From contig ONKF01000007.1 in assembly GCA_900318335.1 (NCBI GenBank), forward strand, positions 1 through 64,000: a stretch of DNA of 64,000 nucleotides, in the 5' to 3' direction. This DNA comes from an uncultured Prevotellaceae bacterium (GTDB lineage Bacteria > Bacteroidota > Bacteroidia > Bacteroidales > Muribaculaceae). Positions within the stretch are counted from its first letter, which is position 1. Each line of letters begins with the position of its first letter. A model generated the notes under the pieces. That model saw only the letters and a program-made list of their open reading frames with translations. It searched no databases and was not told where the DNA came from. Of this stretch, positions 11,558 through 60,058 are shown piece by piece. The position numbers and the translations under genes were made by a program.

Positions 11558-11567
11558 TATTATGTGA

Positions 11568-11965: not shown

Positions 11966-11974
11966 AACTGGGCG

Positions 11975-11982
11975 CAAAATTA
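11975..11982 (-). promoter_or_regulatory. -7 box for the MIP18-family gene
   Basis: TAATTTTG on the minus strand fits TAnnTTTG. The predicted transcription start falls within about 6 bases of the ATG at 11965. Confidence 0.6.
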
Positions 11983-12614: not shown

Positions 12615-12691
12615 TCACCCACCCCCAAGGAGATATAGACTGCAAACAATAAATCAACCCTTTTTTAATCATCATATATTAATTTACGACT

Positions 12692-12784: not shown

Positions 12785-12817
12785 TCGCGTAGTCAATCAG
12801 TGACGACTGTGAAATAG

Positions 12818-16408: not shown

Positions 16409-16416
16409 ATCTTTAT

Positions 16417-16452
16417 TCAAGCATCGCGAGTGCTAACACTTGCGATGCTTGA
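16417..16452 (+). terminator. Hairpin after rocD
   Basis: TCAAGCATCGCGAGTG pairs with CACTTGCGATGCTTGA, 15 of 16 pairs around a CTAA loop. It lacks a long T-run, so some readthrough into pruA is possible. Confidence 0.7.
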
Positions 16453-16535
16453 TGTTTAGAGTTTAATGGTTAAAGTTTATAGACTTTGGCCAAACCATCT
16501 TTTATTTCAAAAACATTAATCCTAAATAAACAACA

Positions 16536-34424: not shown

Positions 34425-35477
34425 CTAACGTTCAAAGATAGCCACCAGCGGATAGTGGTCGCTTTCGCCCTCCTTGTCACGCCGGCACGTGAGCAGTTTC
34501 ATATTACCGCGATAGAAGATGTGGTCAATTTTAACATAGAGGTGATGGGCATGGAACGTATAGGTGGGGCCAAAACCTGACTCGGCCCATGCGTCAAGCA
34601 GGTCATCGCCACACAGGGTGCGGTAAGTGTAGGAGCCTGGTGTGTCATTCATATCTCCCATCACTATCACGTCACCCGTTGTCTCGCCGAGCAGTTTACG
34701 CATTGCCGTGACCTGGCGCACGTGGGTGCGGAAGCCGTTATCCAACTTGCGGACCACCGATTTGACGCGGCGTTTGCGGTTGGACGGTTTGTTCATCGAT
34801 TCGATGATTTTGCTGTCGTTCTGGGTAAAGCGCAACGAACTCAAGTGCATACTCACCACCCTGATGTCACCGCCTGGTGCCTGGACATCCCATGCCTTGA
34901 TGAAATAATTCAGTTTGTCCTTATCCAGAGCCGATGATTTGACTTCGGTATAGGGATACTTGGAGAGGATTCCCACGTCAAAGAAGGCTTTCTTGCGGTA
35001 AGGATATTTCTTATACAACTCCTTGAGCATGGGCTTCACGGGCTCGAGTTGTTCATAGGAGAAATCCACCAATCCCTCCTGAATCACCACCACATCGGCA
35101 TTCTGGTCAAGAATGTAGCGCATGCTCTTGTTAGGCTTATCCCCATCGACCCAGTTAAACTGGGTGACATTCATCGTCAAGACCTTGAGTTGGACCTTGT
35201 CGGGGTCGGCTTCGGGGTGAAACAGATTTAACGGGGATATCAAGCGCAATGTGGGCCATGAGAGAAGCAAGGCGCCAACGAGGACAGCCGCCGAACGCCA
35301 CTGCCTGAACAGGGCAAGCACTGCAAGTAAAACCAAAACGCACAGGGCGATGACAGGCAAAGCCAATGTAGCCATCGAGGGCAGGGTCCAGATATTGGGA
35401 TTGACGCGTCCTCCATAGGCCGAAAAAAGCAGGACGAAGGCTGCTATTATCGATATGATGCGAAAGATATATTTCAT
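34425..35477 (-). CDS. Membrane-anchored endonuclease/exonuclease/phosphatase-fold protein
   Basis: 350 residues from ATG 35477, 16 bases after the acyltransferase stop. Three hydrophobic helices fill residues 1-90. The EEP domain (about 100-350) carries the metal glutamate in VIQEGLVDF, the GDMNDTPGSYTY motif and the SDHYPLVA catalytic histidine. The domain should face the periplasm and hydrolyse phosphodiester or phosphomonoester bonds. Its place at the end of a polysaccharide operon suggests action on phospholipid or glycan phosphate, but such genes are also common elsewhere. The role is unproven. Confidence 0.85.
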   Translation of the reverse strand: MKYIFRIISIIAAFVLLFSAYGGRVNPNIWTLPSMATLALPVIALCVLVLLAVLALFRQWRSAAVLVGALLLSWPTLRLISPLNLFHPEADPDKVQLKVLTMNVTQFNWVDGDKPNKSMRYILDQNADVVVIQEGLVDFSYEQLEPVKPMLKELYKKYPYRKKAFFDVGILSKYPYTEVKSSALDKDKLNYFIKAWDVQAPGGDIRVVSMHLSSLRFTQNDSKIIESMNKPSNRKRRVKSVVRKLDNGFRTHVRQVTAMRKLLGETTGDVIVMGDMNDTPGSYTYRTLCGDDLLDAWAESGFGPTYTFHAHHLYVKIDHIFYRGNMKLLTCRRDKEGESDHYPLVAIFER

Positions 35478-35493
35478 GTGATGATGTAGGGTT

Positions 35494-36516
35494 TCAACTG
35501 ATTTTCCAACCAGGCTTGAAGAAAGGCTCCTGGGCGGTAAACCGCGGGGCATAGGTCTTGAGCAATGCTATCACGGGCCACATGATCAACATGGTCAACG
35601 TGAAGACTACCAAGGTCAAGCCGATGCCAGGTTCCATGCCACCGCGCAAGATAAGCCACGAACGGATGGGAAGAAATACCGTCATGTGAGTGCCCAGAAT
35701 GATGAGCGAATAGCGTCCATAGTGGCACAGGACGGGAATGCGAGACAACGACTTGCAGGCCCAAAAGAGCGACAGGATGGCGACAAACGGCAACAGATAG
35801 AGTTTCCAATAGGGCGGCAACACCTGGAAATGCAGGTTCATGAACTCACTCAGGTAATAGATGGGCACTGCCACAGCAGCCAGCACAAGGATGCCCCACT
35901 TGTCGTGACGTGAGGGATTTAGAGCGCCCAAGCGCTTCATCCCCCACCCCAGCAGGAAGTAAGGCAACGCCACCATCGATGTATCGAGCATGAGCGGCAA
36001 TTCCACCTTGTTGACACCCAGCCAATAGCCGCATAACGAGATCGCCAGCGTCGCTAAAACCAAGCCCCAGACAGGTTTAATCCAGCGCTGCAGGGCATAG
36101 AAAATGATATTAACCCAGAACAGGCTCAGTAGGAACCATAGTGGTGTCGTCACCTGCCAGTAACGCAGGTAGAAAGGTTCAATGAGCTTGATGGGATTGA
36201 TATCGATGGGTTGGGCTCCAATCATGAAACGCGCGGCATACTCCAGCAATTGCACACCATAGGCCAATATCACAAAGAAAACAAACGGCACAAGGATGTT
36301 ATTGACCTTGCGCCGCGTGAAATCGGCAAAGCCGTCGTAGAGCTTAAAGAAAATGCCTGATATGAAGTAATACATGGGCAGGCGGAAGGCCTGCAAAGCG
36401 TTATTGAGATTGGGAGCTAAATAATTAAAAAACTCATGGTCAATATGGTACATCACGATGAGCATGATGCACAGGCATTTCATAAAATCGATGTAGGCAA
36501 TGCGCTGTTGAGGCAT
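35494..36516 (-). CDS. Acyltransferase family 3 membrane protein
   Basis: 340 residues with about ten membrane helices. Acyltransferase 3 (OafA/NodX-like) proteins transfer acyl, often acetyl or succinyl, groups to sugars at the membrane. The N-terminal pattern IAYIDFMKCLCIMLIVMYHIDHEF carries the conserved His, and RLPMYYFISGIFFKL contains the conserved Arg of the family. It follows the acyl carrier protein gene after 38 bases. With the carrier-protein genes around it, this enzyme could be the membrane step that puts the acyl group on the polysaccharide. Confidence 0.88.
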   Translation of the reverse strand: MPQQRIAYIDFMKCLCIMLIVMYHIDHEFFNYLAPNLNNALQAFRLPMYYFISGIFFKLYDGFADFTRRKVNNILVPFVFFVILAYGVQLLEYAARFMIGAQPIDINPIKLIEPFYLRYWQVTTPLWFLLSLFWVNIIFYALQRWIKPVWGLVLATLAISLCGYWLGVNKVELPLMLDTSMVALPYFLLGWGMKRLGALNPSRHDKWGILVLAAVAVPIYYLSEFMNLHFQVLPPYWKLYLLPFVAILSLFWACKSLSRIPVLCHYGRYSLIILGTHMTVFLPIRSWLILRGGMEPGIGLTLVVFTLTMLIMWPVIALLKTYAPRFTAQEPFFKPGWKIS

Positions 36517-36554
36517 CGTGACCCAAGTTGACCGGGATTTCCTGATTGATGGTA

Positions 36555-36782
36555 TTACTTCACCTTGGTCTCGAGCAGGGCAATCACGCGGGAGAAGTCG
36601 GTCATATCGGCAATCTCCTCGGGTTCCAAGTCAATGTCAAAAGCCTCCTCGAGCTCGGATGCCAACGAGAGGTGATGCAACGAGTCCCAGCGCTCACAAT
36701 TCTTCTGTGACGCGTCGGTCGTGACGTTTTCCATTTCAAACACCTCGCGCATGATTTCCAACACTTTATCTTCTAAGTTCAT
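36555..36782 (-). CDS. Acyl carrier protein (first of two in the locus)
   Basis: 75 residues. The four-helix carrier pattern has the phosphopantetheine serine S34 in WDSLHHLSL. The next acidic helix ELEEAFDIDLEPEEI is typical of ACP recognition. The gene overlaps the FkbH-like gene by four bases (ATGA), so the pair is translationally coupled. In known pathways an FkbH-like enzyme loads a glyceryl group from 1,3-bisphosphoglycerate onto such a carrier. That makes glyceryl-ACP the first guess for its cargo. Confidence 0.92.
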   Translation of the reverse strand: MNLEDKVLEIMREVFEMENVTTDASQKNCERWDSLHHLSLASELEEAFDIDLEPEEIADMTDFSRVIALLETKVK

Positions 36783-38374
36783 AACACTCTGATATTATAA
36801 TAGTTCTTTATTTCAAACATATCGCTCAGCGCCATCGAGTAATGCTTGGCGCCCGCCTCATCTGTAGCCTCAAGGGTCATGCCCATGCGGTCATAGAAAT
36901 CGGCAGTCTGGCCATTCTTGGCCGTAGGCAGATAATCGGCGGTGATGTGGCGGTAGCCATCCAGCCTCAACAGATTGAAAACGGTCTTGATGAATGCCTC
37001 TTCAATCCCCTTGCCCAGGATGCGGCAGCTGAGCAACAACGTGTCGATGTTGACAGTCGTGTCATCTGTCGGCTCCAGGAAAATCGTGGCAGTGATGCCG
37101 CTGTCACCAAACCGGTCCCTCACACTCATGCAAAAAACGCGCCAACCCTGATCGAGGCGCTGTTGGACATCGGCCTCGGTATAGCGGCGAGTTGTGAGGT
37201 TAAACTGGTTAGTCTTCTGTGTCATCTGGGCGATGCGCGGCAGATTGTGTTCATCGGCAGGGATAATATCCAGTTGCATGTCCAGGCTGTAAAGATAGGA
37301 CTCGAGGTCGGCAAAATGGGATTGCTCGGCCTGCCGCATTGCATTGGCCCGGTATTGCTCGGTCTTGGCCCGATCCTCGCTGGTCACGGCATAAATGCGG
37401 AAGTATTTCTCCACCAGTTGCTTAAAGAACGGCATGAGTTCATAGGGCTTGGCAGGGAAATCAGGCACCTCGACCTGAGGGAGCACCTGCTTGATGAGTT
37501 CACGCTCGGTGGGGTTATCGTCAACAAAGACCATGCTGTCCAGACCGATGTTGAGTTCGCTGGCTATCTCGCGTATGTTGGTTGCCTTGTCCTGCCAATT
37601 GATGCGCAAAGCGCTGAAGTGCTCACGCTTGAGGACCATGAAAGGATTGTGTTGCCATGCCTCCTCGACATCGGGCTCGTTGTTCTTGCTGCAAACTGCC
37701 AGAATCACGCCATTCTGTGCCAACTGGAGCAGGGAACGCTGCCAATAGGAAAAAGCCTTGCCTGGATAGTCGCCACCCAACTTGATGCCATCGACGCCAT
37801 CCTCGCCAAGGACACCGCCCCACAGGGTGTTATCCAAGTCAAGGATGAGACACTTCTTGCGTTGCAAGGCCAATTCACCCTCGATGCGTTGCCACCACGA
37901 CTGGAAATCACGTGCCAACTTCGGGTTGAGCAAGGTCTGTGACATGAGATAATACTTCCAGTTGACCAGCGTATCGGCATCATATCTTGCAGTGAACTCC
38001 GAGAAGTCCACCCACTTGACGTTAGGCCATGAAGCAGCCAGTGCCGCAATATGGTCATTAAAGGCCGTAACAGCCTGTTGAACAGCTGTTTCGTCACCAG
38101 TGAGCCTCATGGGGAAAAGATTCACAAGCGAGAAAACGACAAACGGCTTACTGGCATCGGCAGCCGACAAAACGATATCCAGTTTGCTGCTATAGGACTC
38201 TATCTCCTGGGCTAACTGGGCGCTATCGGCATTAACGGGAACCTGATAGAACCAAATGTAACGGTCCACCTCGCCTGGCACCATACTGATGTCGTCATAA
38301 CCCGAATAGGTCATGCCATCATAGCCGAAAAAGGCCTCAACCGTTTGATTGCGAAAGACAAAAGTAGTCATCAT
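36779..38374 (-). CDS. HAD-IIIC family FkbH-like protein
   Basis: 531 residues. It has an N-terminal SGNH/alpha-helical region (about 1-165), an HAD-IIIC phosphatase domain with D179 and D181 (LDLDNTLWGGVLGEDG) and VFVDDNP (about 282), and a C-terminal GNAT-like domain (about 400-531). Characterised FkbH-type enzymes bind D-1,3-bisphosphoglycerate and move a glyceryl group to an acyl carrier protein with loss of phosphate. The start is one of two adjacent ATGs at 38374 or 38371. The downstream carrier-protein gene overlaps by four bases. In polysaccharide loci this pair often stands for production of a hydroxy-acyl or glyceryl group; the exact product here is not known. Confidence 0.9.
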   Translation of the reverse strand: MMTTFVFRNQTVEAFFGYDGMTYSGYDDISMVPGEVDRYIWFYQVPVNADSAQLAQEIESYSSKLDIVLSAADASKPFVVFSLVNLFPMRLTGDETAVQQAVTAFNDHIAALAASWPNVKWVDFSEFTARYDADTLVNWKYYLMSQTLLNPKLARDFQSWWQRIEGELALQRKKCLILDLDNTLWGGVLGEDGVDGIKLGGDYPGKAFSYWQRSLLQLAQNGVILAVCSKNNEPDVEEAWQHNPFMVLKREHFSALRINWQDKATNIREIASELNIGLDSMVFVDDNPTERELIKQVLPQVEVPDFPAKPYELMPFFKQLVEKYFRIYAVTSEDRAKTEQYRANAMRQAEQSHFADLESYLYSLDMQLDIIPADEHNLPRIAQMTQKTNQFNLTTRRYTEADVQQRLDQGWRVFCMSVRDRFGDSGITATIFLEPTDDTTVNIDTLLLSCRILGKGIEEAFIKTVFNLLRLDGYRHITADYLPTAKNGQTADFYDRMGMTLEATDEAGAKHYSMALSDMFEIKNYYNIRVL

Positions 38375-38376
38375 TA

Positions 38377-39381
38377 TTACTTCTTTATCATGCGATAGAG
38401 TTTGCTCAACATTGACCACAAACGGGGCTGCATCATCAAGCGGTGAATCACTTTCCACTTGGCACCACCGTAATTGGCCTCGGGTCCCACACAGGGGAAG
38501 GGATACATGCCCACAGCACGCATCCGGTCCAGCACTTCATCAACCAGTCCTGCAGTAAAAGCCCGCGTCATCGCAAAAAAGAGATACACATTTCTCAATC
38601 CTGCCACACTGACGGGTGCGGTCTGCTGAGCGTTTTCCTGGAACTGACGGATGGTTGCATCAATCGAGGCCGCAGAATCGACTTGACAGAACAGCCGGTG
38701 ACGCACATGGTCAAGATTAGTGTTGTGCATCGCACTATCAGCGCGCTTGACGTAGCAGTAAGGGGCGGCATCATAGTGAGCCACACGAGAGGCCTGAAGC
38801 ATGAACCGGGCAATGACTTCGCCGTCCTCACACACGATGAGCGACGGGTTAAAACGCCAATGATGCTGCTCGAAAAACTCCCGGCGGATGAGGTAGCGCC
38901 AGATGTAGGGCGTCATGCTGTGACCCTTGAGGTACTCGACTCCCGTCATGGCTTCGGTCGAGGAGCTACTGGTTCCTGTTGCCACCGTCACTGTGCCATC
39001 GGGAAAGACCATCCTGTTATTAAGCACCTGGACATCCAGGTCAAGATCCATAGCCCGTTGAACGATGTTGACCATCGACCCGCCCATCAGGTAATCATCG
39101 CTGTCCACAAACTGAATGAAGCGCCCCCGGGCATTCTCAAGCGCCAGATTGCGGGCACTGCTCACTCCCGAATGGGGCTGACGGAGGACGCGCACCTGTG
39201 GGTGTTCCCGAGCAAAGGATTCAACCACGTCCAGGGTGCCGTCGGTTGACTCGTCGTCAACGGCAATAATCTCATATTGCTCAGGTGACAATCCTTGATC
39301 AACCAAGGATTGCAGGCACTTGAGCACATAAGGCTCAGTGTTATAGACAGGGACGATGTATGTCAGCAGGATCTCACTCAT
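38377..39381 (-). CDS. Glycosyltransferase family 2
   Basis: 334 residues from ATG 39381, whose A is shared with the TGA of the VOC gene. GT-A fold: YIVPVYNTEPYVLKCLQSL at the N-terminus, VDDESTDGT for nucleotide binding, and the metal-binding FVDSDD near 95. An amphipathic C-terminal part may touch the membrane. It probably adds one sugar to the lipid-linked repeat unit. It lies inside the carrier-protein operon, between the VOC and FkbH-like genes. Confidence 0.92.
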   Translation of the reverse strand: MSEILLTYIVPVYNTEPYVLKCLQSLVDQGLSPEQYEIIAVDDESTDGTLDVVESFAREHPQVRVLRQPHSGVSSARNLALENARGRFIQFVDSDDYLMGGSMVNIVQRAMDLDLDVQVLNNRMVFPDGTVTVATGTSSSSTEAMTGVEYLKGHSMTPYIWRYLIRREFFEQHHWRFNPSLIVCEDGEVIARFMLQASRVAHYDAAPYCYVKRADSAMHNTNLDHVRHRLFCQVDSAASIDATIRQFQENAQQTAPVSVAGLRNVYLFFAMTRAFTAGLVDEVLDRMRAVGMYPFPCVGPEANYGGAKWKVIHRLMMQPRLWSMLSKLYRMIKK

Positions 39382-39779
39382 CAAGTGGGATTCTCGACCA
39401 GTTCAATGAGGCCCGTATTCTTCTGGAAGAGGAAAGCCACACGCCTGTCCTGCATCGCACAGGCGGCAACAGGACCGCTCACCAGCAGAAAGCGCTGTCC
39501 ACGCAGCATGGTGATTGCGGCTTCCATATCCTGAACTTTGTAGCAGATATGATAAGGAGAAACCCCCACAGCCGTGAGGGTGCGTAAAACGGGACTCTGA
39601 TCATCGAGGGGTTCAAGCAATTCCAGCCGAGGCTCGCCTTCCTTCTCCAGGAAGCAGATACGCACATGCTGGACCGGGTCCTCGACAGTGGCCGTTGCTC
39701 TATAGCCCATCGTCAAGTAGAAGCCCTTGGTCTTCTCTATGTCACGGCAGGCTATGCCAATGTGGTCAAATGAGAGCAT
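39381..39779 (-). CDS. VOC family protein (methylmalonyl-CoA epimerase/glyoxalase-like)
   Basis: 132 residues of the vicinal oxygen chelate fold with four metal-ligand candidates: H6 (DHIGIA), E53 (RLELLEP), H77 (PYHICY) and E126 (LIELVE). The layout resembles methylmalonyl-CoA epimerase. That enzyme acts on acyl-CoA and is normally placed with mutase genes, which are absent here. Its position between KAS III and a glycosyltransferase, in a coupled operon, suggests epimerisation or tautomerisation of a carrier-bound or CoA-bound acyl group. This is inference. Confidence 0.85.
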   Translation of the reverse strand: MLSFDHIGIACRDIEKTKGFYLTMGYRATATVEDPVQHVRICFLEKEGEPRLELLEPLDDQSPVLRTLTAVGVSPYHICYKVQDMEAAITMLRGQRFLLVSGPVAACAMQDRRVAFLFQKNTGLIELVENPT

Positions 39780-39794
39780 GAAATATGTGGTTTC

Positions 39795-40844
39795 TTAATA
39801 CTCAATGACGGGCGACACGTGGCAGTCGCGCATATTCATGATAGCCGACCCCCAACTCAAACCAGCGCCGAAGCCGCTCATGAGCACGAGATTGTCACCC
39901 GTGAGACGTCCAGCCAACTCGCTGGAGATGGTCAAGGGCACCGAGGCACTGCTGGTATTGCCGAACTTGTGGATGCAGTAAGGCACCTTGTCGGCAGAAA
40001 TCTTGAGTTTCTTGACAAAGAAGTCCATCATGAAACGGTTAGCCTGGTGAAATACCAGGTAATCCAGGTCATCAACCGAGCGATCGGTCTCCTTGAGGAG
40101 CTGCTTCACACTCTTGGGCACCTTGCTGATGGCGAAATTGAAGACGTCCATACCGTCCATAAACACTTCAAGATCAGTGCGGATATTGCCATCCTCACGC
40201 TCTCGCTCGACACAGGAGTCGGCGGTGATGGGATTGCGCATACCGGCATGAATCTTGAGGGTCTCCTCGCCGCTGCCATCGGTGTAGAGGGTGAAAGTCG
40301 AGTCACCATAGTCGCCCTTCTCGATGAGGGTAGCCGTCCCCGCGTCGCCATAGAGGGGCCAATCCACCTTGTCACGGCGGTTGACAATCTTGGAGAACGT
40401 CTCACCATCGAGGAGCAGCACGCGGTTCACGCCCTCCATCGAGGCATAGGCAAAAGCTGCGCTCAGGGCAAACAAGTAGCCCGAACAGCCTAATGAAATG
40501 TCAAAGCACAACGTCTCGCGAGGCAGCCCAAGGCGGTGCTGCAACAGGCAAGACGTGGCAGGAATGCGGTAATCGGCCGTCTGGCTCATGAACAAGAGCA
40601 CGTCGATGCTCTCGGGCTCGATATTGTTGTCGGCAAACAATTGCTGGGCGGCCTTGAAACACAAGTCGCTCGCGGTCACATCGGGGGCAGCAATGCGGCG
40701 CTGCTCGATACCGATGTTGTTGATTGTTTTCTCGATTTCCTCCTCGGGGATGAGATATCCCAAGTCCTTGTTATAAACTATTTCCTGAGGGACACAAGCC
40801 GACAGGGCCTTAATGCCCACGCCATGATAGGTGATAGTTGCCAT
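39795..40844 (-). CDS. 3-oxoacyl-ACP synthase III family protein (KAS III-like)
   Basis: 349 residues with the thiolase fold and an intact Cys-His-Asn triad: C120 (SLGCSGYL), H266 (VFHQANRF) and N296 (KFGNTSSAS). FabH-type enzymes condense acyl-CoA with malonyl-ACP. Related enzymes transfer acyl groups in secondary pathways. The location in a glycan operon rather than with fab genes suggests it makes or transfers a special short acyl group on one of the two nearby carrier proteins. The 349-residue length is slightly longer than housekeeping FabH. Confidence 0.92.
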   Translation of the reverse strand: MATITYHGVGIKALSACVPQEIVYNKDLGYLIPEEEIEKTINNIGIEQRRIAAPDVTASDLCFKAAQQLFADNNIEPESIDVLLFMSQTADYRIPATSCLLQHRLGLPRETLCFDISLGCSGYLFALSAAFAYASMEGVNRVLLLDGETFSKIVNRRDKVDWPLYGDAGTATLIEKGDYGDSTFTLYTDGSGEETLKIHAGMRNPITADSCVEREREDGNIRTDLEVFMDGMDVFNFAISKVPKSVKQLLKETDRSVDDLDYLVFHQANRFMMDFFVKKLKISADKVPYCIHKFGNTSSASVPLTISSELAGRLTGDNLVLMSGFGAGLSWGSAIMNMRDCHVSPVIEY

Positions 40845-40894
40845 AAATTAAAAAGAAGTTGATTGCCAGGCGACTTTAAGTCAAGGTTATCACA

Positions 40895-41128
40895 TTACTC
40901 AACCCTCGACTTTACAATTTCATACAGATCCTCTACAGTATTGCTATTGCGTATGTCTTCTCCACGGAATTCCACATCATACTCCTCATCGACCATCGCA
41001 ATGACCGACAAAGCAAGAAGGGATGACCATTCCTCCAACTCCTTGAACGCGGTTGTGGCGTTTATGGTATCTGGGTCTGTTTCGTCAAACAGATCTGAAA
41101 AATTCTCGATGAATTGTTCTAAACTCAT
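40895..41128 (-). CDS. Acyl carrier protein (second of two in the locus)
   Basis: 77 residues. The carrier pattern has EWSSLLALS, where S36 lines up with the phosphopantetheine serine. The first half is more acidic than in the other carrier (FIENFSDLFDETDPD). It is first in the likely operon, with a promoter box about 80 bases upstream, and lies 50 bases before the KAS III gene. The WSSL in place of WDSL/ADSL is seen in other stand-alone carriers. Confidence 0.88.
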   Translation of the reverse strand: MSLEQFIENFSDLFDETDPDTINATTAFKELEEWSSLLALSVIAMVDEEYDVEFRGEDIRNSNTVEDLYEIVKSRVE

Positions 41129-41208
41129 ACTGTGTATTAATCTTGAATTAATTTGGATTTATTATTGCCTTAAAAACGAAAAAGTACATAAAGTATTTTA
41201 ACGGGTGG

Positions 41209-41216
41209 CAAAATTA
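41209..41216 (-). promoter_or_regulatory. -7 box for the carrier-protein operon
   Basis: TAATTTTG on the minus strand matches TAnnTTTG in an A/T-rich 193-base gap. It predicts a separate transcript starting about 77 bases before the second carrier protein gene. Confidence 0.6.
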
Positions 41217-41321
41217 CACAAAAAAACTCATAAACACCGCTTAATGAAAACTATTTATCGGCTAAATTCCTTCTTATTACTAAAAAAAACTAAAAAATAG
41301 CCTCTGAATGACAAATATGCG

Positions 41322-41963
41322 TCAAAAATTAAACCGGCGTGCAGGAACACCCAGGTAGGTCTTGTTGTTGCTTGGACGCGTCATGAGCACGCTATTGGCA
41401 CCCAAAGTCACTCCATGACCTATTGATATTCCCTGGAGCACAACACAAGCCACGCCGAGCATATTGTTGTCGCCGATGGTGACCCCACCCGAGAGATGGA
41501 CTGCAGGCATGATGCTGTTATAGCTGCCGATGTGATTATCGTGGCCCACAACGACATGGTCATTGATGAGGTTGAAATCACCCAGGGTGACATCACACGA
41601 AATCATGCAGTTATTCTGGATGATGTTGCCCTTACCCATGATCACTGTCACTGGATCAACCAGAAACAGTGTCGGGTCAATCAGGTTGGGGAAAGTGACA
41701 TTAGGGTTGGTTATCGCTTTGCTGATGCGCTTAACGGCCTTGTTGTCACTGATGGCGATGGCCACAGCCAAGGGTTCATTGACCTGCGACAGCGAGTCCA
41801 TGCCTCCAAGCACCTTGCCATATCGTGAAACCGGCATACCTGCAGGTTTAGCATCATCATAAAAACCTATCAGTTCCCATTGTTGATGCTGTGCGTTTAT
41901 TCTGGTAATGAGGCAGGCAACTTCCTTTCCGAAGCCTCCCGCACCGTATATTGCAATTTTCAT
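41322..41963 (-). CDS. NeuD/PglD-like hexapeptide-repeat acyltransferase
   Basis: 213 residues. An N-terminal Rossmann-like sugar-nucleotide domain (IAIYGAGGFGKEVACL) is followed by left-handed beta-helix hexapeptide repeats (about 95-205). A histidine in VVGHDNHIG is in the position used by PglD/NeuD. Such enzymes acetylate an amino group of a nucleotide sugar or a sugar hydroxyl. It closely resembles the C-terminal half of the fusion protein at 44571-45845, including shared ELIGFYDD-type, NPN-FPNLI and VPA-RF-F segments. It lies next to the DegT aminotransferase, whose product it may acetylate. Confidence 0.9.
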   Translation of the reverse strand: MKIAIYGAGGFGKEVACLITRINAQHQQWELIGFYDDAKPAGMPVSRYGKVLGGMDSLSQVNEPLAVAIAISDNKAVKRISKAITNPNVTFPNLIDPTLFLVDPVTVIMGKGNIIQNNCMISCDVTLGDFNLINDHVVVGHDNHIGSYNSIMPAVHLSGGVTIGDNNMLGVACVVLQGISIGHGVTLGANSVLMTRPSNNKTYLGVPARRFNF

Positions 41964-42002
41964 GGTTTGACTCTTTTCACTAAATTAATATCCGGGTATA
42001 AC

Positions 42003-43142
42003 TCACTTGCAGCAAGCGATGATTTCACGTGCCACGAGTTCGACCTGTTCGTCGGTCACCCACGGTCCGCTAGGCAGACAGAGCCCCTTGGTGAACAGTT
42101 CTTCACTCACACCGTTCACATAGGCGGGAGCGCCCGAGAAGACCGGCTGGGTGTGCATGGGTTTCCACAAGGGGCGGGACTCGATATTAGCTGCATCTAA
42201 GTGCTGGCGAACGGTCTCATAGTCGGTGCCCGTCTTGGCGGGGTCGATAAGGATCGTGTTGAGCCAGTAATTGCTGTCGGAGCGCTCATCGTAGTTGACA
42301 TGAACATCAATACCGTCAACATTGGCAAAGAGCTCGACATATCGGTCACACAGATGTCTGTGGTGAGCCAAGTGCTCGTCGAGGATAGTCATCTGACCGC
42401 GACCAATGCCTGCACAGATGTTGCTCATGCGGTAGTTATAGCCAATCTCCTTGTGCAGATAGTAAGGCATGGGCTCGCGGGCCTGGGTTGCGTAGAACAT
42501 GATTTTCTTCTTGGCCACCTCATCAGGGCAGATGAGCGCGCCACCTCCGCTGGTGGTAATCATCTTGTTGCCATTGAAGCTCATGATGCCGTATTCGCCA
42601 AACGTGCCACACAGCTGACCACGATACCGTGACCCGAAGGCCTCGGCCGAATCCTCGATGACGGGAATCTCATAACGGCGGGCGATTTCCATGATATCAT
42701 CTATCTTAGCTGGCATGCCGTAAAGATAGACCGGGATGATAGCCTTGGGCTTACGGCCGGTCTTGGCGATGCGGTCCTTGATGGCCTCCTCGAGCAGATT
42801 GGGATCCATATTCCAGGTATCGGGCTCGCTATCGACAAACACGGGTATACCGCCCTGATAGGTAATGGGATTAGCGCTTGCCGAGAACGTCATCGACTGA
42901 CAGATGACCTCGTCATCACGACCGACGCCTAAATTTACGAGTGCCAAATGAATGGCTGCAGTACCCGAACTGAGCGCGACAACCTTCTTGTCCTCGCCAC
43001 ACAGCTGCTCCAGGTCCTCCTCAAAGGCGTTCACATTGGGGCCAAGAGGCACTACCCAGTTGGTGTCAAAAGCCTCTTGGATATACTTCATCTCCTGGCC
43101 ACTCATGTGGGCGAGACATAATAAGATTCTATTGTTTGCCAT
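42003..43142 (-). CDS. DegT/DnrJ/EryC1/StrS family aminotransferase (PglE-like)
   Basis: 379 residues. PLP-dependent nucleotide-sugar aminotransferase. Landmarks are ALSSGTAAIHLAL (56-68), the VIEDSAEAFGSRY aspartate (D164), and PLP lysine K193 in FNGNKMITTSGGG. The sequence is closest in style to PglE/LegC enzymes, which aminate UDP-4-keto-6-deoxy-GlcNAc. Its neighbours, a PglC-like transferase and PglD-like acetyltransferases, support a diacetyl-bacillosamine-type sugar. The PglF dehydratase that would supply the keto sugar is not in the window. Confidence 0.93.
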   Translation of the reverse strand: MANNRILLCLAHMSGQEMKYIQEAFDTNWVVPLGPNVNAFEEDLEQLCGEDKKVVALSSGTAAIHLALVNLGVGRDDEVICQSMTFSASANPITYQGGIPVFVDSEPDTWNMDPNLLEEAIKDRIAKTGRKPKAIIPVYLYGMPAKIDDIMEIARRYEIPVIEDSAEAFGSRYRGQLCGTFGEYGIMSFNGNKMITTSGGGALICPDEVAKKKIMFYATQAREPMPYYLHKEIGYNYRMSNICAGIGRGQMTILDEHLAHHRHLCDRYVELFANVDGIDVHVNYDERSDSNYWLNTILIDPAKTGTDYETVRQHLDAANIESRPLWKPMHTQPVFSGAPAYVNGVSEELFTKGLCLPSGPWVTDEQVELVAREIIACCK

Positions 43143-43157
43143 AAAACTTATATATTG

Positions 43158-43742
43158 TTATAAAATTTCCATACTTTCTGGAGCATGACCCGGATAGACG
43201 GTGCGATGCTCGGCTAACTGCTTGATAAGTATCTCACTGCAGGCTGCCTGCTTTTTGTCGCAGTGAGGTAAATTGGTCACGGTCTTGACTCCCGGGATGT
43301 AACTGTCACCCGTAAACATCATGTCGTCGAGTACCCAAGTCACGCAGCATGGACTGTGCCCCGGCGTGAAAACGGCATGCACGCTCACGCCATCGAACAG
43401 TTCAAACACATCTCCGTCATGAAGTATTCTGATGTTATTAACGGGTTGTAATTGGAGAGTATTGCCGTAAAACTTTGAAAAATTCAACTTGTCGTCATAC
43501 AAGGTCTCCAGGCCGTAGTCATTGGTATAGACGGGCACATCGGGACACAAGTTCAGCAGCTGATTGAGTCCATAGATGTGGTCAAAGTGGCCATGGGTGA
43601 GCAAGATACCGCATAGGGGCCCCTTGATGTACGGCAAAATCTGATCCACATCGCCACAGTCCACGAGCCACGAGTGTCCTGCATGAGTCAGGATGTAGCT
43701 GCAAGAGCGGAAGATGGAATTGACGACCTGGTTGACTACCAC
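43158..43742 (-). CDS. MBL-fold metallo-hydrolase
   Basis: 194 residues with the zinc motif THGHFDH (H50, H52, D54, H55), a later TPGHSPCC histidine, TGDSYIPG and a C-terminal YPGHAPES histidine. The layout is that of glyoxalase II and related thioesterases. It lies between the aminotransferase and SDR genes and is probably cotranscribed with both. A thioesterase acting on an acyl-carrier or acyl-CoA intermediate is a reasonable idea in view of the carrier-protein genes, but unproven. Confidence 0.88.
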   Translation of the reverse strand: MVVNQVVNSIFRSCSYILTHAGHSWLVDCGDVDQILPYIKGPLCGILLTHGHFDHIYGLNQLLNLCPDVPVYTNDYGLETLYDDKLNFSKFYGNTLQLQPVNNIRILHDGDVFELFDGVSVHAVFTPGHSPCCVTWVLDDMMFTGDSYIPGVKTVTNLPHCDKKQAACSEILIKQLAEHRTVYPGHAPESMEIL

Positions 43743-43757
43743 CGATTGACGAGAATG

Positions 43758-44513
43758 TTATAATGAGAAGCCACCGTCAAGAACGAGATCATGTCCTGTC
43801 ACCCAACTGGAAGCGTCACTCAACAGATAGATGGCCGCATTAGCCACATCGCTGGGTTCGCCATAACGGCCCAGGGGATAGCCCTTAGCATCCTCGGCCA
43901 GTTGCTCCTCGGTTATTGTGCCGTTGTGAATGAGCGGGGTATCGACCATGCCAGGGCAAATGCTGTTGACACGGATCATGCGGGTGGCATACTCGCGAGC
44001 CGCATATCTCATAACAGAGTTCAACGCAGCTTTGGACGCGCCATACACTCCGTTGCCCGGCATGAAAGTGTGGGTGCCACCTACCGAGGCGATCAAAACG
44101 ACCGAAGCGCCCTTGACGAGCACTTTCTTCTTGTACATCAGCCGCAGCAACTCAACGGGCGCAAAAAAGTTGATGTCAAACATGCTATCAAACTTTTCGC
44201 GCGTACCGAACTGCAAGGGCAGGGTTATTGAATTGCCGGCACACAGCACTGCACCGTCCAACTTGGGCAATTCGCTCACAATGTGCTCGACGTCCTGCTG
44301 AACAGTCATGTCGGCAATCAACTGCAAGTGCCCCTCGACCTCGGGATTGAGTTGGTCAAAAGTTGCCTGTAAGCGTTCCTGGTTTCGGGCAGTGATGACC
44401 ACCTTAGCGCCCATGCGGGAACAGGTAATGGCGGTTTCCTTGCCTATACCCGAAGATGCGCCAGTCACCAGGATTGTTTTACCGGCCAGTGTAAAAGGAT
44501 TATATTCCATCAT
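43758..44513 (-). CDS. SDR family oxidoreductase
   Basis: 251 residues, classical short-chain dehydrogenase. The coenzyme motif is TGASSGIG (17-24). The catalytic set is S143, Y157 and K161 (YGASK), and the GGFSL C-terminus is typical of FabG-like enzymes. The start was chosen at ATG 44513; a second ATG follows at once. A ketoacyl or keto-sugar reductase role is possible. Next to a KAS III-containing operon, reduction of a 3-ketoacyl group to 3-hydroxyacyl is attractive, but the substrate cannot be told from sequence. Confidence 0.9.
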
Positions 44514-44570: not shown

Positions 44571-45845
44571 TTATTCAAAATCGAATCTCTTAGCAGGCAC
44601 TCCGATATAGGTGTGTCCATCCTTGGGCTTGGTCATGAGCACACTGCCAGCACCGAGGGTAACGTTGTTTCCAACCTTGATCTTCTGTAAGATGACGCTG
44701 TCAACACCGAACAAGTTGCAACAGCCCACCTCAACCGCACCGGACAGGCGCACGGCAGGCATGAGGACATTGAAATCCCCCACCACCACATCATGGCCCA
44801 GGACATTGGAACCGTTCAATACGTTGAAATCGCCCACAGTAACGTCACACGTGGCGCTGCAGCCCTCCTGAATGATGTTGCCGTGGCCAATCTTGAATGT
44901 CTTGGGGTCCAAAATCCTGAATGACGGAGCAATCAGGTTCGGGAAGTAAATATTCGGGTTCGTAATACGGCTATGGATAAGAGAACGCACACTGGGATCG
45001 CCCACAGCAATCGCCAGCGCCAACGGTTTATCAACTGAATTGAGTTCTTCCATTCCGCCTAAAACGTGCCCATAATGAGAGACCTCGGTACCAGCCGTTT
45101 TATTGTCATCGTAGAAGCCGATAAATTCCCATCTCTCTTTTCCGAATTTGTTGATTTTTTCGATACCACCAGCAACTTCTCGGCCCAAACCGCCTGCACC
45201 ATAAACAGCAATCTGATTAGGCACAACCGATGTGATGTCACTATAGGACGAGATGTCGCCTTGCCTGGGTTTGATACGGCAGGGGTTGCCATAGGCAACA
45301 GCCCCATCTGGCACGTCATGGACGACAACGCTGCCTGCACCGACAATACTCCATCGGCCGATTCTGACACCAGGTATCACGACAGCCGCAGCACCAATCC
45401 ATGCCCCCTCTCCCACGTGCACATTACCACACAAGGTGGCCTGTGGGGAAATGTGGGCAAAGTCCTCCACGACGCATTCATGATCCACCGAAGCTCCTGT
45501 ATTGAGAATACAATGCGAGCCGATCACTACCCCACTCTGGATAATCGCACCCTGCATCACTACAGTGCCCCTACCCATCCTGACGCTGGGCGATATGATG
45601 GCTGACGGATGACGGAGCGTTGCAAAATCACAATTCTGCAGCTTGTCGACAATCTGTTTGCGAGCGAGATTGTTACCGATACTGATGACGACCGGAGATT
45701 CGCCGTTCCAGTGATGCTTGACCGGTATAGACAACAATTCGTTGATGGAGTCATCGTCATCAAACAATGCATCCACCTTGATATTCATCGATTTAAGAAT
45801 ATCAATAATTACCTTTGCGTGTCCGCTTGCTCCGTATAGATACAT
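44571..45845 (-). CDS. Fusion of two NeuD/PglD-like acyltransferases
   Basis: 424 residues holding two complete acyltransferases. The N-terminal unit (1-200) has the sugar-nucleotide motif YGASGHAK, hexapeptide repeats and the PglD-type histidine H122 (SVDHECVVED). The C-terminal unit (about 210-424) restarts with IAVYGAGGLGREVAG, has its own hexapeptide repeats and a histidine H351 in VLGHDVVVGD. The C-terminal unit is a close relative of the separate 213-residue enzyme at 41322-41963. The gene lies 5 bases downstream of the PglC-like gene. It probably acylates two positions of a sugar in turn, for example the amino group and another. Such a double unit is unusual. Confidence 0.88.
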   Translation of the reverse strand: MYLYGASGHAKVIIDILKSMNIKVDALFDDDDSINELLSIPVKHHWNGESPVVISIGNNLARKQIVDKLQNCDFATLRHPSAIISPSVRMGRGTVVMQGAIIQSGVVIGSHCILNTGASVDHECVVEDFAHISPQATLCGNVHVGEGAWIGAAAVVIPGVRIGRWSIVGAGSVVVHDVPDGAVAYGNPCRIKPRQGDISSYSDITSVVPNQIAVYGAGGLGREVAGGIEKINKFGKERWEFIGFYDDNKTAGTEVSHYGHVLGGMEELNSVDKPLALAIAVGDPSVRSLIHSRITNPNIYFPNLIAPSFRILDPKTFKIGHGNIIQEGCSATCDVTVGDFNVLNGSNVLGHDVVVGDFNVLMPAVRLSGAVEVGCCNLFGVDSVILQKIKVGNNVTLGAGSVLMTKPKDGHTYIGVPAKRFDFE

Positions 45846-45850: not shown

Positions 45851-46465
45851 TTAGTTATTTCCGTTAAATGCTTCCATTGTTGCTTGACCGTCCTGGGATA
45901 TGCCATCGCGGACAATCACTTTCTTGATTGTGGTGAGAATCACCTCGACATCGGTCTTGAAACTGCAGTGGTCAACATACCACACATCGAGTTTGAACTT
46001 CTCGCCCCATGACAATGTGTTGCGGCCATGACATTGGGCCCATCCCGAGATACCTGGCCTCACCTCGTGGCGACGAGCCTGCTCTGGAGAGTACAAGGGC
46101 AGATACTGCACTAACAAAGGCCTGGGGCCAATGATGGCCATGTCTCCCTTAAGTACATTGAAAAGCTGAGGCAACTCATCGATACTGGTTGAGCGGACAA
46201 AGCGCCCCACCGGGGTCAACCGCTCACCATCAGGCAAAAGCTCACCCGACGCATCGCGCTCGTCGGTCATTGTCTTATATTTAATGATTTTGAAAATCTT
46301 GCCGTTCTTGCCAGGGCGCTCCTGGAAAAAGAATGCGCCAGCACCCTTGTTAGCAAAGTGGAGCCAAATGGTCACCACCAGCAATAATGGCGACAGACAA
46401 ATGATGGCGATGAGGGAGATACAGAATCCCAACACACGCTTAACACAGTCGCGATAGATTCTCAT
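45851..46465 (-). CDS. Undecaprenyl-phosphate phosphosugar transferase (PglC-like initiating enzyme)
   Basis: 204 residues, the small monotopic form. It moves a phosphosugar from a UDP-sugar to undecaprenyl phosphate to begin the repeat unit. Residues 10-35 form the re-entrant helix with P26 in LSPLLL. The catalytic Asp-Glu pair is D96-E97 (SIDELPQLFNVLKGDM), and IIGPRPL follows. The C-terminal RPGISGWAQ is typical. Being next to PglD- and PglE-like genes makes a bacillosamine-type sugar the likely first residue. Confidence 0.94.
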   Translation of the reverse strand: MRIYRDCVKRVLGFCISLIAIICLSPLLLVVTIWLHFANKGAGAFFFQERPGKNGKIFKIIKYKTMTDERDASGELLPDGERLTPVGRFVRSTSIDELPQLFNVLKGDMAIIGPRPLLVQYLPLYSPEQARRHEVRPGISGWAQCHGRNTLSWGEKFKLDVWYVDHCSFKTDVEVILTTIKKVIVRDGISQDGQATMEAFNGNN

Positions 46466-48569: not shown

Positions 48570-49484
48570 TTATTGCACAAACTGAACCTTCCGAATATAA
48601 TGGCGTCTTCTTTCCTCTACCGATGGCACTCTTTGCCAATTGCCATAAGTCATTTCTAGATGAGACTCAGCATCATGTGGTAAAAGCACCTCAACATCTT
48701 CAAACAAACCAACTCGTGCAGGAAATAGCATACATTCTGGGATTGGTTTCCATTTATATGTACATAATAAGTCTGAAACGAAACCAGTGTACACATTATT
48801 TCGACAAAAACGGTCAACTATATTCATCCATGTTTGAAAGCTCATAAACGAGAAACTAAAACCTATGAATTGCCTTAACCAATAATTGATTTTTGATGAC
48901 ATGGAATAATTCATTATCGCATGGTAATTTTCATTGTTCAACTCATATTGTCGCACAGAAGCGCCGACATACATGAATATCATCGATAATAATCTTTTAA
49001 TAGTATTTTTTATCTTTTCAGATGGATTTAAAGAATCTAGCGGAAAAATATCTACAAATATTCCTTGAGAATGATCATCATTATCGTCTTCGTCAGCTTC
49101 AATAAACTTTGTTCGAGTGTCTACAACTTTTGCGAATCTTGTTAATGCTTTATTTTTAGAATTTGGAGCATACACTTGTAGATACTCAGGAAGATCACTA
49201 GAGTAATGATTAATAAATAAATCATAGTCTTTCCTAGGCATGAATAAATCCATATCGTCATCCCATGGTATGAACCCAGCATGTCTTATAGCTCCTAAAA
49301 CAGAACCATAAGCGAGCATTACTGTCAAATTATTCTTAAGACACACGACTTCAATTTCTTTATACATCCACAACAAATGACGTTGTAATTTCTGTCGCTC
49401 CTCATCAGTTAACACGTGTAAATCATATTTATTCTGACAAGCTTTCTGGTATAAATCCCTTGTTTTAATTATATTAATTATCAT
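48570..49484 (-). CDS. LicD family phosphotransferase
   Basis: 304 residues. LicD proteins attach phosphocholine or similar phospho-groups (for example ribitol- or glycerol-phosphate) from CDP-linked donors to surface glycans. The metal-binding core GSVLGAIRHAGFIPWDDDMD (60-79) is complete. The gene is visibly A/T-rich and overlaps the upstream glycosyltransferase gene by 11 bases. Candidates for making the activated donor are the kinase-nucleotidyltransferase genes at 57768-60462. Confidence 0.93.
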   Translation of the reverse strand: MIINIIKTRDLYQKACQNKYDLHVLTDEERQKLQRHLLWMYKEIEVVCLKNNLTVMLAYGSVLGAIRHAGFIPWDDDMDLFMPRKDYDLFINHYSSDLPEYLQVYAPNSKNKALTRFAKVVDTRTKFIEADEDDNDDHSQGIFVDIFPLDSLNPSEKIKNTIKRLLSMIFMYVGASVRQYELNNENYHAIMNYSMSSKINYWLRQFIGFSFSFMSFQTWMNIVDRFCRNNVYTGFVSDLLCTYKWKPIPECMLFPARVGLFEDVEVLLPHDAESHLEMTYGNWQRVPSVEERRRHYIRKVQFVQ

Positions 49485-57767: not shown

Positions 57768-58508
57768 TCAATCCCTACAGCCAAATTCTTTCATCAGCAA
57801 GTCCTCATACTCGGCGGGAACTCCTGAGAAGATGACTTCGTCTCGGTCGATGATATGGATGTGGATTTTGTAGGACTTGGCTATCAGGTAGTTATACAGA
57901 GGTGCCACATATAGCTCAGCTATGCCGGAGATGGGATTCTCCTGATTTTCGGCATAGGCGGCCTCGAATGCCTCGGTACTCTTGAAGTAGTAAAGTCCTG
58001 TGGAGCAATACTTCGAGATCTCTTTCTTCTCGGCCGTTTCGACGACCAGGGTGGAGTCTTCAGACTCGGTCCTGGCATAGGACCAATTCTTGCCTGAGCC
58101 TACAAACACCTCAAGGTAGCCATCCCAATCATCCATCTTAGGCGGGAACGTAAAACCAGGACGGAAGGTGTCGATATTGAAAATCAGAATCGGCTCATCT
58201 TTGGCAATCGAGGCTCCCTCGATTCCCTTAAGGACCGTTTCGGCCTGCCCTTTAGTCGGGGCCGGAAGGATGACGACATTGAAATCCTTGATGCCCATCA
58301 ATTCGCACTCTTTCTCGATAAAAGTCCGTGTGTCAAACACGTCCCTTGCCACAAAGACAAAGCGGCACGAATCAAAGTATTTCTCAAAACTCGATACCGC
58401 AAGGTTAAACAAGCTGCGGTTCTTGATATAAAGCATGTACTTGGGCAGGACATATCCCGCTTTGGTGAAACGGGAGCTGAGACCGGCCATCGGGATGATA
58501 ATCGTCAT
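57768..58508 (-). CDS. Sugar/polyol-phosphate nucleotidyltransferase-like protein
   Basis: 246 residues with a complete GT-A-type nucleotidyltransferase layout: PMAGLSSRF (6-14), K23 in PKYML, and the metal aspartate D113 in IFNIDTFRPG. It should join a phosphorylated small molecule or sugar to a nucleotide. Four-base overlap (ATGA) with the upstream fusion gene. Because the fusion protein also contains a nucleotidyltransferase-like half, the two may work as a pair. The substrate is unknown. Confidence 0.87.
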   Translation of the reverse strand: MTIIIPMAGLSSRFTKAGYVLPKYMLYIKNRSLFNLAVSSFEKYFDSCRFVFVARDVFDTRTFIEKECELMGIKDFNVVILPAPTKGQAETVLKGIEGASIAKDEPILIFNIDTFRPGFTFPPKMDDWDGYLEVFVGSGKNWSYARTESEDSTLVVETAEKKEISKYCSTGLYYFKSTEAFEAAYAENQENPISGIAELYVAPLYNYLIAKSYKIHIHIIDRDEVIFSGVPAEYEDLLMKEFGCRD

Positions 58509-60058
58509 TTTACCGTGGTTTTTAAGTCAATATAAAGCCGTAACGCATTGGCCAGCATGGCCCTCTGGCGCTCGTGATTGTCACGATGCAAGGGGAGCAT
58601 TGACAAGAACAGATGCACCATGATAGGATAAGCATTCAGCGTCTCAATGCTGTAACCCGCAAACTGCATCGACTTGAACTGTTCCTGCATTGCACGGGTG
58701 GAATCGTTGACATCAAACTTGAGTGTAAGGTCATAGGGGGCTGATTCACTGTATTCAAACATGCCCGCAATGATGTAATCATAGAGGCCGATGATCGAAT
58801 GGGCCAGTTTGGCCACATCATATCTCAAATCGCCATACATCGAGAGGTTCCCCTCGTTGTCGATGCCACGTGGATCAATCACCTTGACACTCCTGGACTT
58901 GAAATCATACAGAATGTTGCTGAAACAGAAGTCACCATGCATCATGGTCACGAACTCGCCCTTGTCATGAGCGATCATGTCTCCTGTTTCCTCGACTATC
59001 TGCCGCAACGATGGCGTGGTCACACCATTAATCACCCACTTGCTGTCGAGCGAAATGCCCGACTCGTCGGCATACTGATTCAGGCGCTTGATGGTCTTGG
59101 ACGTGTAGAGTTCGTTGTTATTGAACGCTATCCTTGACACCTCTGCTGCAGATTCGGGCCGATACTTCGCCAAATCGGAGATAAACACCTGACATGCATT
59201 GATGATATCGTTCCACACGAACAAGGGGTGCTTACCGAACACAAAAAGATTGGCCAATGAGCTCAAGTAATAATACTCCATCTCATAGTAGCCACAGCCA
59301 TCCTTCAGACCACTATCCCAGACAGCGGGCGCATAATGCCTCAGGTCCTTTGGCAGATTCTGAAGCCAATGGGCCTCGGCCATCATCTTGTTGACGTCAT
59401 GGCTGGACTTGGTGAGCGAGAAACGCCCAATATTCAAGTCATTGAACACGCGTTGGGTTGTCAGGTTGGAAATAGACCTGTAGTAAGTGTTCACCAGTCC
59501 AAAGTCCATCCAGGAATCACTGGTGATACGCTCGAGCGACAGTGTCTTGCCGTACATCTCAACACCAGCAATGAAAGAGCTGTTCTGCCTGGTGATGCAA
59601 TTGATGAGTAACGATTGGGACGAGAATGCAAAGAATCCCGCATAGACCGTATCGCTGTCAACTGATGCCCAGGCATAATTATCCTCGGCACGGGCTATCA
59701 CATAACTGTCAGGCACTAAAGTTAATGACCCGAACAGCGTGTCGCCATGCAGGATATAAACCGGCTCACTGAAATGGCCGATGGTGTTCAAGCTATATAT
59801 CACCGACTGGCCTAACGACAAGCCGTCAGGTACCATAATAATGCCCACATTCCGTTGCTCCAGCTGCTTCTTATCATAGGTCGACAACTCATAAGACGAA
59901 GGCAACGAGAGGAAAATATCCTCACCGCTGTCCTCCAATAGCGAGAGCTGATGCATGTAGAGCCGCTTGTTCTGAACCGGCAGCATGCACGGAGGCAGCA
60001 TGCCTAACTCTGAAGCGAGGCTCGGGTTGACGTATGCAGCCGACGTGATGAGTATCAT
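58505..60058 (-). CDS. Fusion of nucleotidyltransferase-like and aminoglycoside/choline-kinase-like domains
   Basis: 517 residues. The first 230 form a nucleotidyltransferase-like domain. LPPCMLPVQNKRLYMHQ (21-37) corresponds to the usual PKxLLPV region, and D106 (LHGDTLFG) to the metal ligand, but the N-terminal GxGxR loop is degenerate (ITSAAYVNPSLASELG). The C-terminal part (about 235-517) is an APH/choline-kinase-type phosphotransferase with HGDFCFSN (about 375-382) and the metal aspartate in VIDPRG (about 395). It could phosphorylate a small alcohol or sugar and help activate it. The gene overlaps its neighbours by four bases on both sides. The closest functional analogy is LicA plus LicC, with LicD also in the locus. 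Confidence 0.82.
   Translation of the reverse strand: MILITSAAYVNPSLASELGMLPPCMLPVQNKRLYMHQLSLLEDSGEDIFLSLPSSYELSTYDKKQLEQRNVGIIMVPDGLSLGQSVIYSLNTIGHFSEPVYILHGDTLFGSLTLVPDSYVIARAEDNYAWASVDSDTVYAGFFAFSSQSLLINCITRQNSSFIAGVEMYGKTLSLERITSDSWMDFGLVNTYYRSISNLTTQRVFNDLNIGRFSLTKSSHDVNKMMAEAHWLQNLPKDLRHYAPAVWDSGLKDGCGYYEMEYYYLSSLANLFVFGKHPLFVWNDIINACQVFISDLAKYRPESAAEVSRIAFNNNELYTSKTIKRLNQYADESGISLDSKWVINGVTTPSLRQIVEETGDMIAHDKGEFVTMMHGDFCFSNILYDFKSRSVKVIDPRGIDNEGNLSMYGDLRYDVAKLAHSIIGLYDYIIAGMFEYSESAPYDLTLKFDVNDSTRAMQEQFKSMQFAGYSIETLNAYPIMVHLFLSMLPLHRDNHERQRAMLANALRLYIDLKTTVK

Follow-up and report, generated by a model that had tools for sequence, protein, structure and literature searches.

A candidate glyceryl-started acyl carrier protein pathway for amino-sugar N-acylation in surface-glycan loci of Bacteroidota

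What would a polysaccharide locus make with two acyl carrier proteins (ACPs)? The question is raised by a 64,000-nucleotide stretch of contig ONKF01000007.1 (assembly GCA_900318335.1), here called the window, from a rumen-type Bacteroidales bacterium whose assembly is 92.9% complete. A preliminary description of this DNA had noticed at 34425-44513 two ACPs, a beta-ketoacyl-ACP synthase III (KAS III), an FkbH-like HAD protein, a VOC protein, a short-chain dehydrogenase/reductase (SDR), a metallo-beta-lactamase-fold hydrolase (MBL) and a membrane acyltransferase right after a carrier, mixed with sugar enzymes, and had proposed that a carrier-bound acyl group is made there for an amino sugar or glycan. 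All of these genes were found as described. They lie on the - strand and form the distal part of a polysaccharide locus that extends on this strand to about 62577 in the window. Our reading of them, to which we assign a probability of about 0.5, is a glyceryl-started, once-extended type-II polyketide route to the N-acyl group of a 4-amino-4,6-dideoxy-type sugar in a surface glycan.

The genes, all on the - strand, are transcribed in the order small sugar-phosphate transferase, double PglD-type acyltransferase, SDR, MBL, DegT-type aminotransferase, single PglD-type acyltransferase, ACP1, KAS III, VOC, family 2 glycosyltransferase (GT2), FkbH, ACP2, membrane acyltransferase AT3 and a protein of the endonuclease/exonuclease/phosphatase family. 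Which of them belong together was judged from related loci. GTDB contigs were scanned with a KAS III alignment only, whose nine rows all came from loci with FkbH, and genes were counted in the best 80 of 463 KAS III relatives; the counts are of overlapping sets and are not additive. Thirty-seven of the 80 loci form a near lineage (79-95% KAS III identity) and the other 43 are more distant. By taxon there are 70 from Bacteroidales, 3 from other Bacteroidia, 3 from Flavobacteriales, 1 each from Sphingobacteriales, Treponema and Sedimentibacter, and 1 unplaced; most are metagenome bins, so that a lone unexpected taxon may reflect an error of binning. Two loci, L150 and L151, show the full set in the cultured species Chryseobacterium jejuense. 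Seventy-seven loci contain FkbH and one more, L122, is truncated at a contig end; among the 80 it was not found in L120 (8313-12236, with a KAS III 67% identical to that of the window) and L138. The 77 FkbH loci contain ACP2 in 75 cases, ACP1 in 72, VOC and SDR in 70 each and a PglD-type gene in 63, followed by DegT (49), MBL (41), AT3 (35) and the small sugar transferase (34). For the 43 more distant loci the corresponding numbers are FkbH 41, ACP2 39, SDR 38, ACP1 36, VOC 34, PglD-type 28, DegT 14, MBL 6 and AT3 2. A core of ACP1, SDR, KAS III, VOC, FkbH and ACP2, often with a PglD-type gene, recurs across Bacteroidota more than chance. The preliminary description had called for a gene-neighbourhood comparison across genomes, with genes not conserved together as one outcome that would count against its proposal; the core genes are conserved together. 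It had also placed MBL (43158-43742; PF00753, 4.4e-15) and AT3 (35494-36516; PF01757, 1.7e-29) in the set, and these two proved to be local, lineage-specific additions. With presence near KAS III in 6 of the 43 more distant loci, MBL was dropped as a core member; AT3, present in 2 of them, is unlikely to be the acceptor step for ACP2 and probably does a separate O-acylation.

Two further comparisons qualify this picture. Evolutionary distances of KAS III correlate positively with those of all 8 neighbour genes, and for each of these 0 of 1000 permutations gave a value as high. The values for the accessory DegT (r = 0.50) and small sugar transferase (SugT, 0.59) lie among those of the core genes (0.38-0.77), and the distance correlations therefore single out no KAS III partners. 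Within the family, a KAS III search of 297 genomes gave a strong match in 48, the window's own included, which marks the locus as accessory. Of 40 stretches taken from 40 matching genomes, 23 contain FkbH and 17 do not.

KAS III (39795-40844) has the triad C120-H266-N296, noticed at the outset as intact and kept in 34 of 34 rows of the FkbH-linked clade to which the protein belongs. We take H266 and N296 to be the KAS III residues for decarboxylative condensation. Elsewhere in the genome there is one further KAS III match, a FabH-like gene that is 30% identical, so fatty acid synthesis need not be the task of the window KAS III; the role of fatty-acid KAS III was rejected for it on this ground. 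A first tree of 73 rows placed two Streptomyces KAS IIIs on an implausibly long branch. A more careful tree was built from 67 KAS IIIs, non-redundant at 80% identity, leaving out these two, L176, L186, L071 and the housekeeping FabH. Loci with two KAS III genes serve as an inner control for the clade test. In the careful tree 32 of the 33 KAS IIIs that are nearest to FkbH fall in one clade of 34 rows (99/98), whose remaining two rows are the second KAS III of L122 and the KAS III of L138, a locus without FkbH. Outside the clade lie 12 of 13 second KAS IIIs from FkbH loci and 19 of 20 KAS IIIs from FkbH-free loci. Of the KAS IIIs with an AMP-ligase as their nearest loader, all 7 are outside it. 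Residues that distinguish the clade from other KAS IIIs were also identified. Membership of the KAS III clade thus follows the starter-loading enzyme. A second KAS III, where present, may share in the same chain.

The loading enzyme itself, FkbH (36779-38374; TIGR01686, 6.8e-89, 298 bits against a cut-off of 147), has an N-terminal domain, a HAD-IIIC domain and a GNAT-fold C-terminal domain. The HAD-IIIC motifs are DLDNTLW at 179, CSKN at 228 and DDNP at 285; among 77 full-length FkbH open reading frames (ORFs) a DLDNTLW-type motif is kept in 71 and a CSKN-type motif in 75. The marks of the FkbH family, a HAD aspartate motif, a conserved Cys and a partner ACP, are all found in the window. The FkbH start is most likely at 38374 (531 aa); a GTG at 38458, inside the GT2 gene, is disfavoured. 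No second FkbH match was found in the genome assembly at E 0.001. Another locus, L149, has two FkbH genes (11061-12632 and 15234-17168), the second of them downstream of a PglD-type gene.

The VOC metalloprotein (39381-39779) has the fold of glyoxalase I and methylmalonyl-CoA epimerase, enzymes that act on their thioesters through an enolate. The four metal-ligand candidates already picked out in it (H6, E53, H77 and E126) are kept in 70 of 70 proteins from the loci examined. This H-E-H-E set and the fold agree with glyoxalase I, as a predicted activity; the name methylmalonyl-CoA epimerase was rejected, with the window protein at 66.8 bits against a curated NCBIfam cut-off of 114.95. VOC immediately follows KAS III in 62 of the 77 FkbH loci, and VOC-FkbH-ACP is also found in loci without KAS III. 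VOC goes with FkbH, not with KAS III. In the window's lineage GT2 (38377-39384; PF00535, 1.4e-29) stands between VOC and FkbH. Of the acyl groups first proposed, the hydroxyacyl type and loading by FkbH are retained in our reading; a lactyl group from VOC and MBL as a glyoxalase I/II pair was set aside as the main product because of the lack of conservation of MBL and the association of VOC with FkbH.

The two carriers are ACP1 (40895-41128; PF00550, 23.2 bits against a cut-off of 20.8) and ACP2 (36555-36782), which the NCBIfam ACP models match weakly, below cut-off, and which has no Pfam match. Both carrier serines are conserved in the loci examined: S36, the phosphopantetheine serine of ACP1, in 105 of 105 ACP1-type ORFs and S34 of ACP2 in 69 of 69. 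The FkbH and ACP2 genes overlap by ATGA at 36779-36782, as reported before, and ACP2 is immediately 3' of FkbH in 69 of the 77 FkbH loci. A PglD-type gene comes immediately before ACP1 in 52 of the 77, and FabD-type genes do so in two loci, L054 and L144. The adjacency of PglD-type and FabD-type genes to ACP1, and of ACP2 to FkbH, suggests separate carrier roles, with ACP1 for malonyl, the growing chain and transfer and ACP2 as the starter carrier. Separate steps for the two carriers, loading and condensation, had been anticipated in the preliminary description.

From these parts we infer every chemical step and the final product. FkbH would take the glyceryl group of 1,3-bisphosphoglycerate and load it on ACP2. 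VOC would act on the alpha-hydroxythioester of glyceryl-ACP2, most likely setting the configuration at C2 via an enolate. KAS III would receive the glyceryl group from ACP2 on C120 and condense it decarboxylatively with malonyl-ACP1, giving 3-oxo-4,5-dihydroxypentanoyl-ACP1. The FabG-like SDR (43758-44513; PF13561, 1.1e-55), as a 3-oxoacyl-ACP1 reductase in the role of VioR, would convert this to 3,4,5-trihydroxypentanoyl-ACP1, which carries a 2-deoxypentonoyl group. A PglD/VioB-type enzyme would then take the acyl group off ACP1 and attach it to the amino group that the DegT-type sugar aminotransferase makes. The PglD/VioB-type gene just upstream of ACP1 (41322-41963) matches TIGR03570 at 2.3e-46 and 158.0 bits, just below the cut-off of 160.8, and PF17836 above cut-off. 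The aminotransferase (42003-43142; PF01041, 3.6e-92) is LegC/VioA-like, and its only second match in the genome is partial, at 35%. The small sugar-phosphate transferase (Bac_transf, 204 aa, 45851-46465; PF02397, 7.2e-58) may then place the acylated sugar on the lipid carrier as the first sugar of the repeat. The UDP-sugar dehydratase family PF02719 has 6 matches in the genome and 0 on the window's contig, so a gene from elsewhere would be required for the amino sugar; a candidate (400 bits) lies on another contig.

Several observations weigh against this route. L120 has a clade KAS III, SDR, ACP1 and ACP2, yet FkbH was not found in its 21 kb, and L138 has a clade KAS III, yet FkbH was not found in 14 kb. 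In the first tree the FkbH-nearest KAS IIIs of L176, L179 and L186 fall outside the clade; L176 and L186 were excluded from the careful tree as long branches. FkbH also lies within 3 kb of 11 KAS IIIs outside the clade; most of these are second KAS IIIs, with which FkbH may have a role too. VOC adjoins FkbH in only 3 of 15 FkbH loci without KAS III, and 9 of the 43 more distant loci have no VOC near KAS III. The FabD evidence comes from just L054 and L144, which have sister KAS IIIs. A glyceryl starter is suggested by the homology of FkbH, and some FkbH pathways change the glyceryl group further. We know of no product, substrate or structure for any member of the KAS III clade. Finally, the locus of cj1302, an fkbH-domain gene of Campylobacter jejuni taken up below, presumably has KAS III and ACP genes too, an arrangement that would fit a KAS III without chain extension.

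An alternative that we consider unlikely is that the locus serves two branches, with KAS III using acetyl-CoA in the manner of FabH to give 3-hydroxybutanoyl for the amino sugar, and FkbH and ACP2 supplying glyceryl to another acceptor, for example as an O-ester made by AT3. KAS III homologues in FkbH-free loci (17 of 40 in the family scan) agree with such a division, as do the 3-hydroxybutanoyl product of the closest known backbone, that of the viosamine island, and the place of AT3 after ACP2 in the window. The trees, in which the KAS III clade tracks FkbH, argue against it, however, as does the gene content of the 43 distant loci, where AT3 is near KAS III in 2 and FkbH in 41; the order of genes, with VOC directly after KAS III and ACP2 directly after FkbH in the proportions given above (62/77 and 69/77), does not favour it either. 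Quite unlikely, in our view, is a KAS III that works as a transacylase and passes a glyceryl or lactyl-like group on ACP2 over to ACP1 or to the acceptor, giving a three-carbon N-glyceroyl group with no extension. Such groups have precedent in the N-glyceroyl of Tannerella forsythia pseudaminic acid and in the O-methylated glyceroyl of C. jejuni flagellin, whose locus has an fkbH-domain gene, and VOC-FkbH-ACP is present in loci without KAS III. But a transacylase fits poorly with H266 and N296, which we assume to be condensation residues, being kept in all 34 clade rows, with a FabG-like SDR near KAS III in 38 of the 43 distant loci, and with FabD-type genes before ACP1 in two loci.

Tetronate operons (abyA1-A3, mad7/8/16) offer another model, in which FkbH loads glyceryl on a discrete ACP (parts of PMC3625739 and PMC7489565). 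The aby operon has KAS III, FkbH and ACP in the same order as the window, and so do two Streptomyces plasmid clusters that are likened to tetronate operons by their layout. By analogy with abyssomicin and tetromadurin, KAS III could join glyceryl-ACP2 to a chain on ACP1 and close a tetronate ring. We find this very improbable: KAS III in tetronate systems releases a type I polyketide as the tetronate, and a polyketide synthase gene was not found in the mapped locus. The KAS IIIs of the two Streptomyces clusters are 24-26% identical to ours and have Pro at H266, so the trio of FkbH, discrete ACP and KAS III is present in the window but a tetronate-type KAS III, which lacks the catalytic His in these two clusters, is not. 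Their 11-kb stretches contain no annotated VOC, SDR or sugar acyltransferase, and the conserved SDR of our locus would remove the 3-oxo group. Equally hard to credit is FkbH as the source of an extender, whereby glyceryl-ACP2 would be oxidised to hydroxymalonyl-ACP2 and used by KAS III instead of malonyl-ACP. FkbH products take this route in methoxymalonyl-ACP pathways, but it needs two further dehydrogenases and the conserved core has one SDR only, and the FabD-type genes point to malonyl on ACP1.

The glyceryl-started, once-extended route can be compared with described systems. Its backbone of ACP1, KAS III, FabG-like SDR, PglD/VioB-type enzyme and DegT is, as judged by homology, of the known viosamine-island and Flavobacterium wfp type. 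The hallmarks of ACP-dependent amino-sugar N-acylation of this type were found: an ACP serine, an island-type KAS III with Cys-His-Asn, and a reductase, an aminotransferase and a PglD/VioB-type gene in the locus. The viosamine island of Pseudomonas syringae comprises vioA, vioB, vioR, vioS and acp, homologues of which are present in the PAK flagellar glycosylation island, and deletion of vioR leads to loss of the 3-hydroxybutanoyl-viosamine residue (parts of PMC3927599). Like the window it has an aminotransferase, KAS III, ACP, 3-oxoacyl-ACP reductase and PglD/VioB-type acyltransferase; in contrast to the window, the seven P. syringae genes listed in that paper include neither FkbH nor VOC nor a second carrier. 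The vioA island on plasmid pBGF3 of Burkholderia glumae matches the window in KAS III (38% over 333 residues), SDR (39%), DegT (30%, to VioA) and PglD-type proteins (27-35%). No match to the window ACPs was found in this island, and neither FkbH nor VOC has a match within the 14 kb surrounding its KAS III, which groups with KAS IIIs from FkbH-free loci, plus that of L179 (FkbH 4.7 kb away). A gap in the gene table of the island was checked for a hidden FkbH and holds a second KAS III, with no listed gene and split over two frames (L207, 9248-10349). In F. psychrophilum, wfpC-wfpG are predicted to make a 3,5-dihydroxyhexanoyl group for the Qui2NAc4N of the O-antigen (parts of PMC6519341). They share with the window a Bacteroidota surface glycan, an ACP, a 3-ketoacyl-ACP synthase (two in wfp), a reductase and a PglD homologue; the difference is that FkbH is mentioned 0 times in the main text of that paper.

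The backbone is thus known, and the preliminary remark that no pathway with the full set is described goes too far; within the literature searched, it is the FkbH/ACP2/VOC start alone for which no description came up. This start together with the backbone was not found in the literature searched, outside which most subscription journals lie. The unit of FkbH, second ACP and glyoxalase-I-like VOC coupled to a dedicated KAS III appears to be new, and a starting acyl acid drawn from a sugar-breakdown intermediate seems undescribed for glycans. A trihydroxypentanoyl or 2-deoxypentonoyl group on a glycan was not found in the literature by its names. The only glycan locus with fkbH encountered in the literature searched is that of C. 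jejuni 11168, whose flagellar glycan locus contains cj1302 (parts of PMC7099621) and whose species carries a di-O-methylglyceroyl amino sugar on flagellin (parts of PMC3068675). It resembles the window in having an fkbH-domain gene among glycan genes and differs in its three-carbon glyceroyl product; FkbH in glycan loci as such is therefore not new. As a tentative proposal, possible rather than probable, Bacteroidota glycans would carry a 2-deoxypentonoyl amide on the initiating amino sugar, made from FkbH-made, VOC-epimerised glyceryl-ACP2 and malonyl-ACP1; more broadly, loci would diversify surface glycans in a modular way by exchanging the starter loader (FkbH/ACP2, AMP-ligase/ACP, possibly transketolase), with a separate KAS III group for each. 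If true, our reading makes 1,3-bisphosphoglycerate a link between glycolysis and the diversity of surface glycans, both in gut and rumen Bacteroidota and in Flavobacteriia. It would also predict an N-acyl group not found on glycans in the literature searched by its names, with the gene signature KAS III-VOC-FkbH-ACP2 for finding it. The VOC-FkbH-ACP part suggests candidates for the N-glyceroyl step of T. forsythia, whose gene has been called 'elusive' (part of PMC6120980).

Many close relatives of the locus (L034-L043, L045-L048, L074 and others) have extra genes between SDR and MBL or DegT, typically two ACPs, an AMP-ligase (PF00501), a second KAS III and an ATP-grasp protein (PF14397). The window genome and its near relatives L072 and L073 are without them; the corresponding junction in the window is near 43742-43758. 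L067, a KAS III locus with no FkbH, has at 11012-14454 an apparent split transketolase pair (PF02779/PF02780 in the second ORF), alongside an AMP-ligase-like ORF and a carrier of ACP2 type; this may be a third kind of starter.

The double PglD/NeuD/VioB-type acyltransferase (44571-45845) consists of two fused copies (TIGR03570, 2.5e-109, in two stretches); with the single gene at 41322-41963 this brings the locus to three acyltransferase units. The endonuclease/exonuclease/phosphatase-family protein at the edge of the span (34425-35552, by family match) is outside the pathway. A LicD-family protein (PF04991) is encoded at 48570-49484, and a possible nucleotidyltransferase and kinase-like pair at 57768-58508 and 58505-60058 was recognised by reading, with no or weak Pfam match; together these suggest that the same glycan carries a phospho-substituent, phosphocholine-like or of another kind. 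A polysaccharide pyruvyl transferase (PF04230) at 60488-61579 represents a further glycan modification in the locus.

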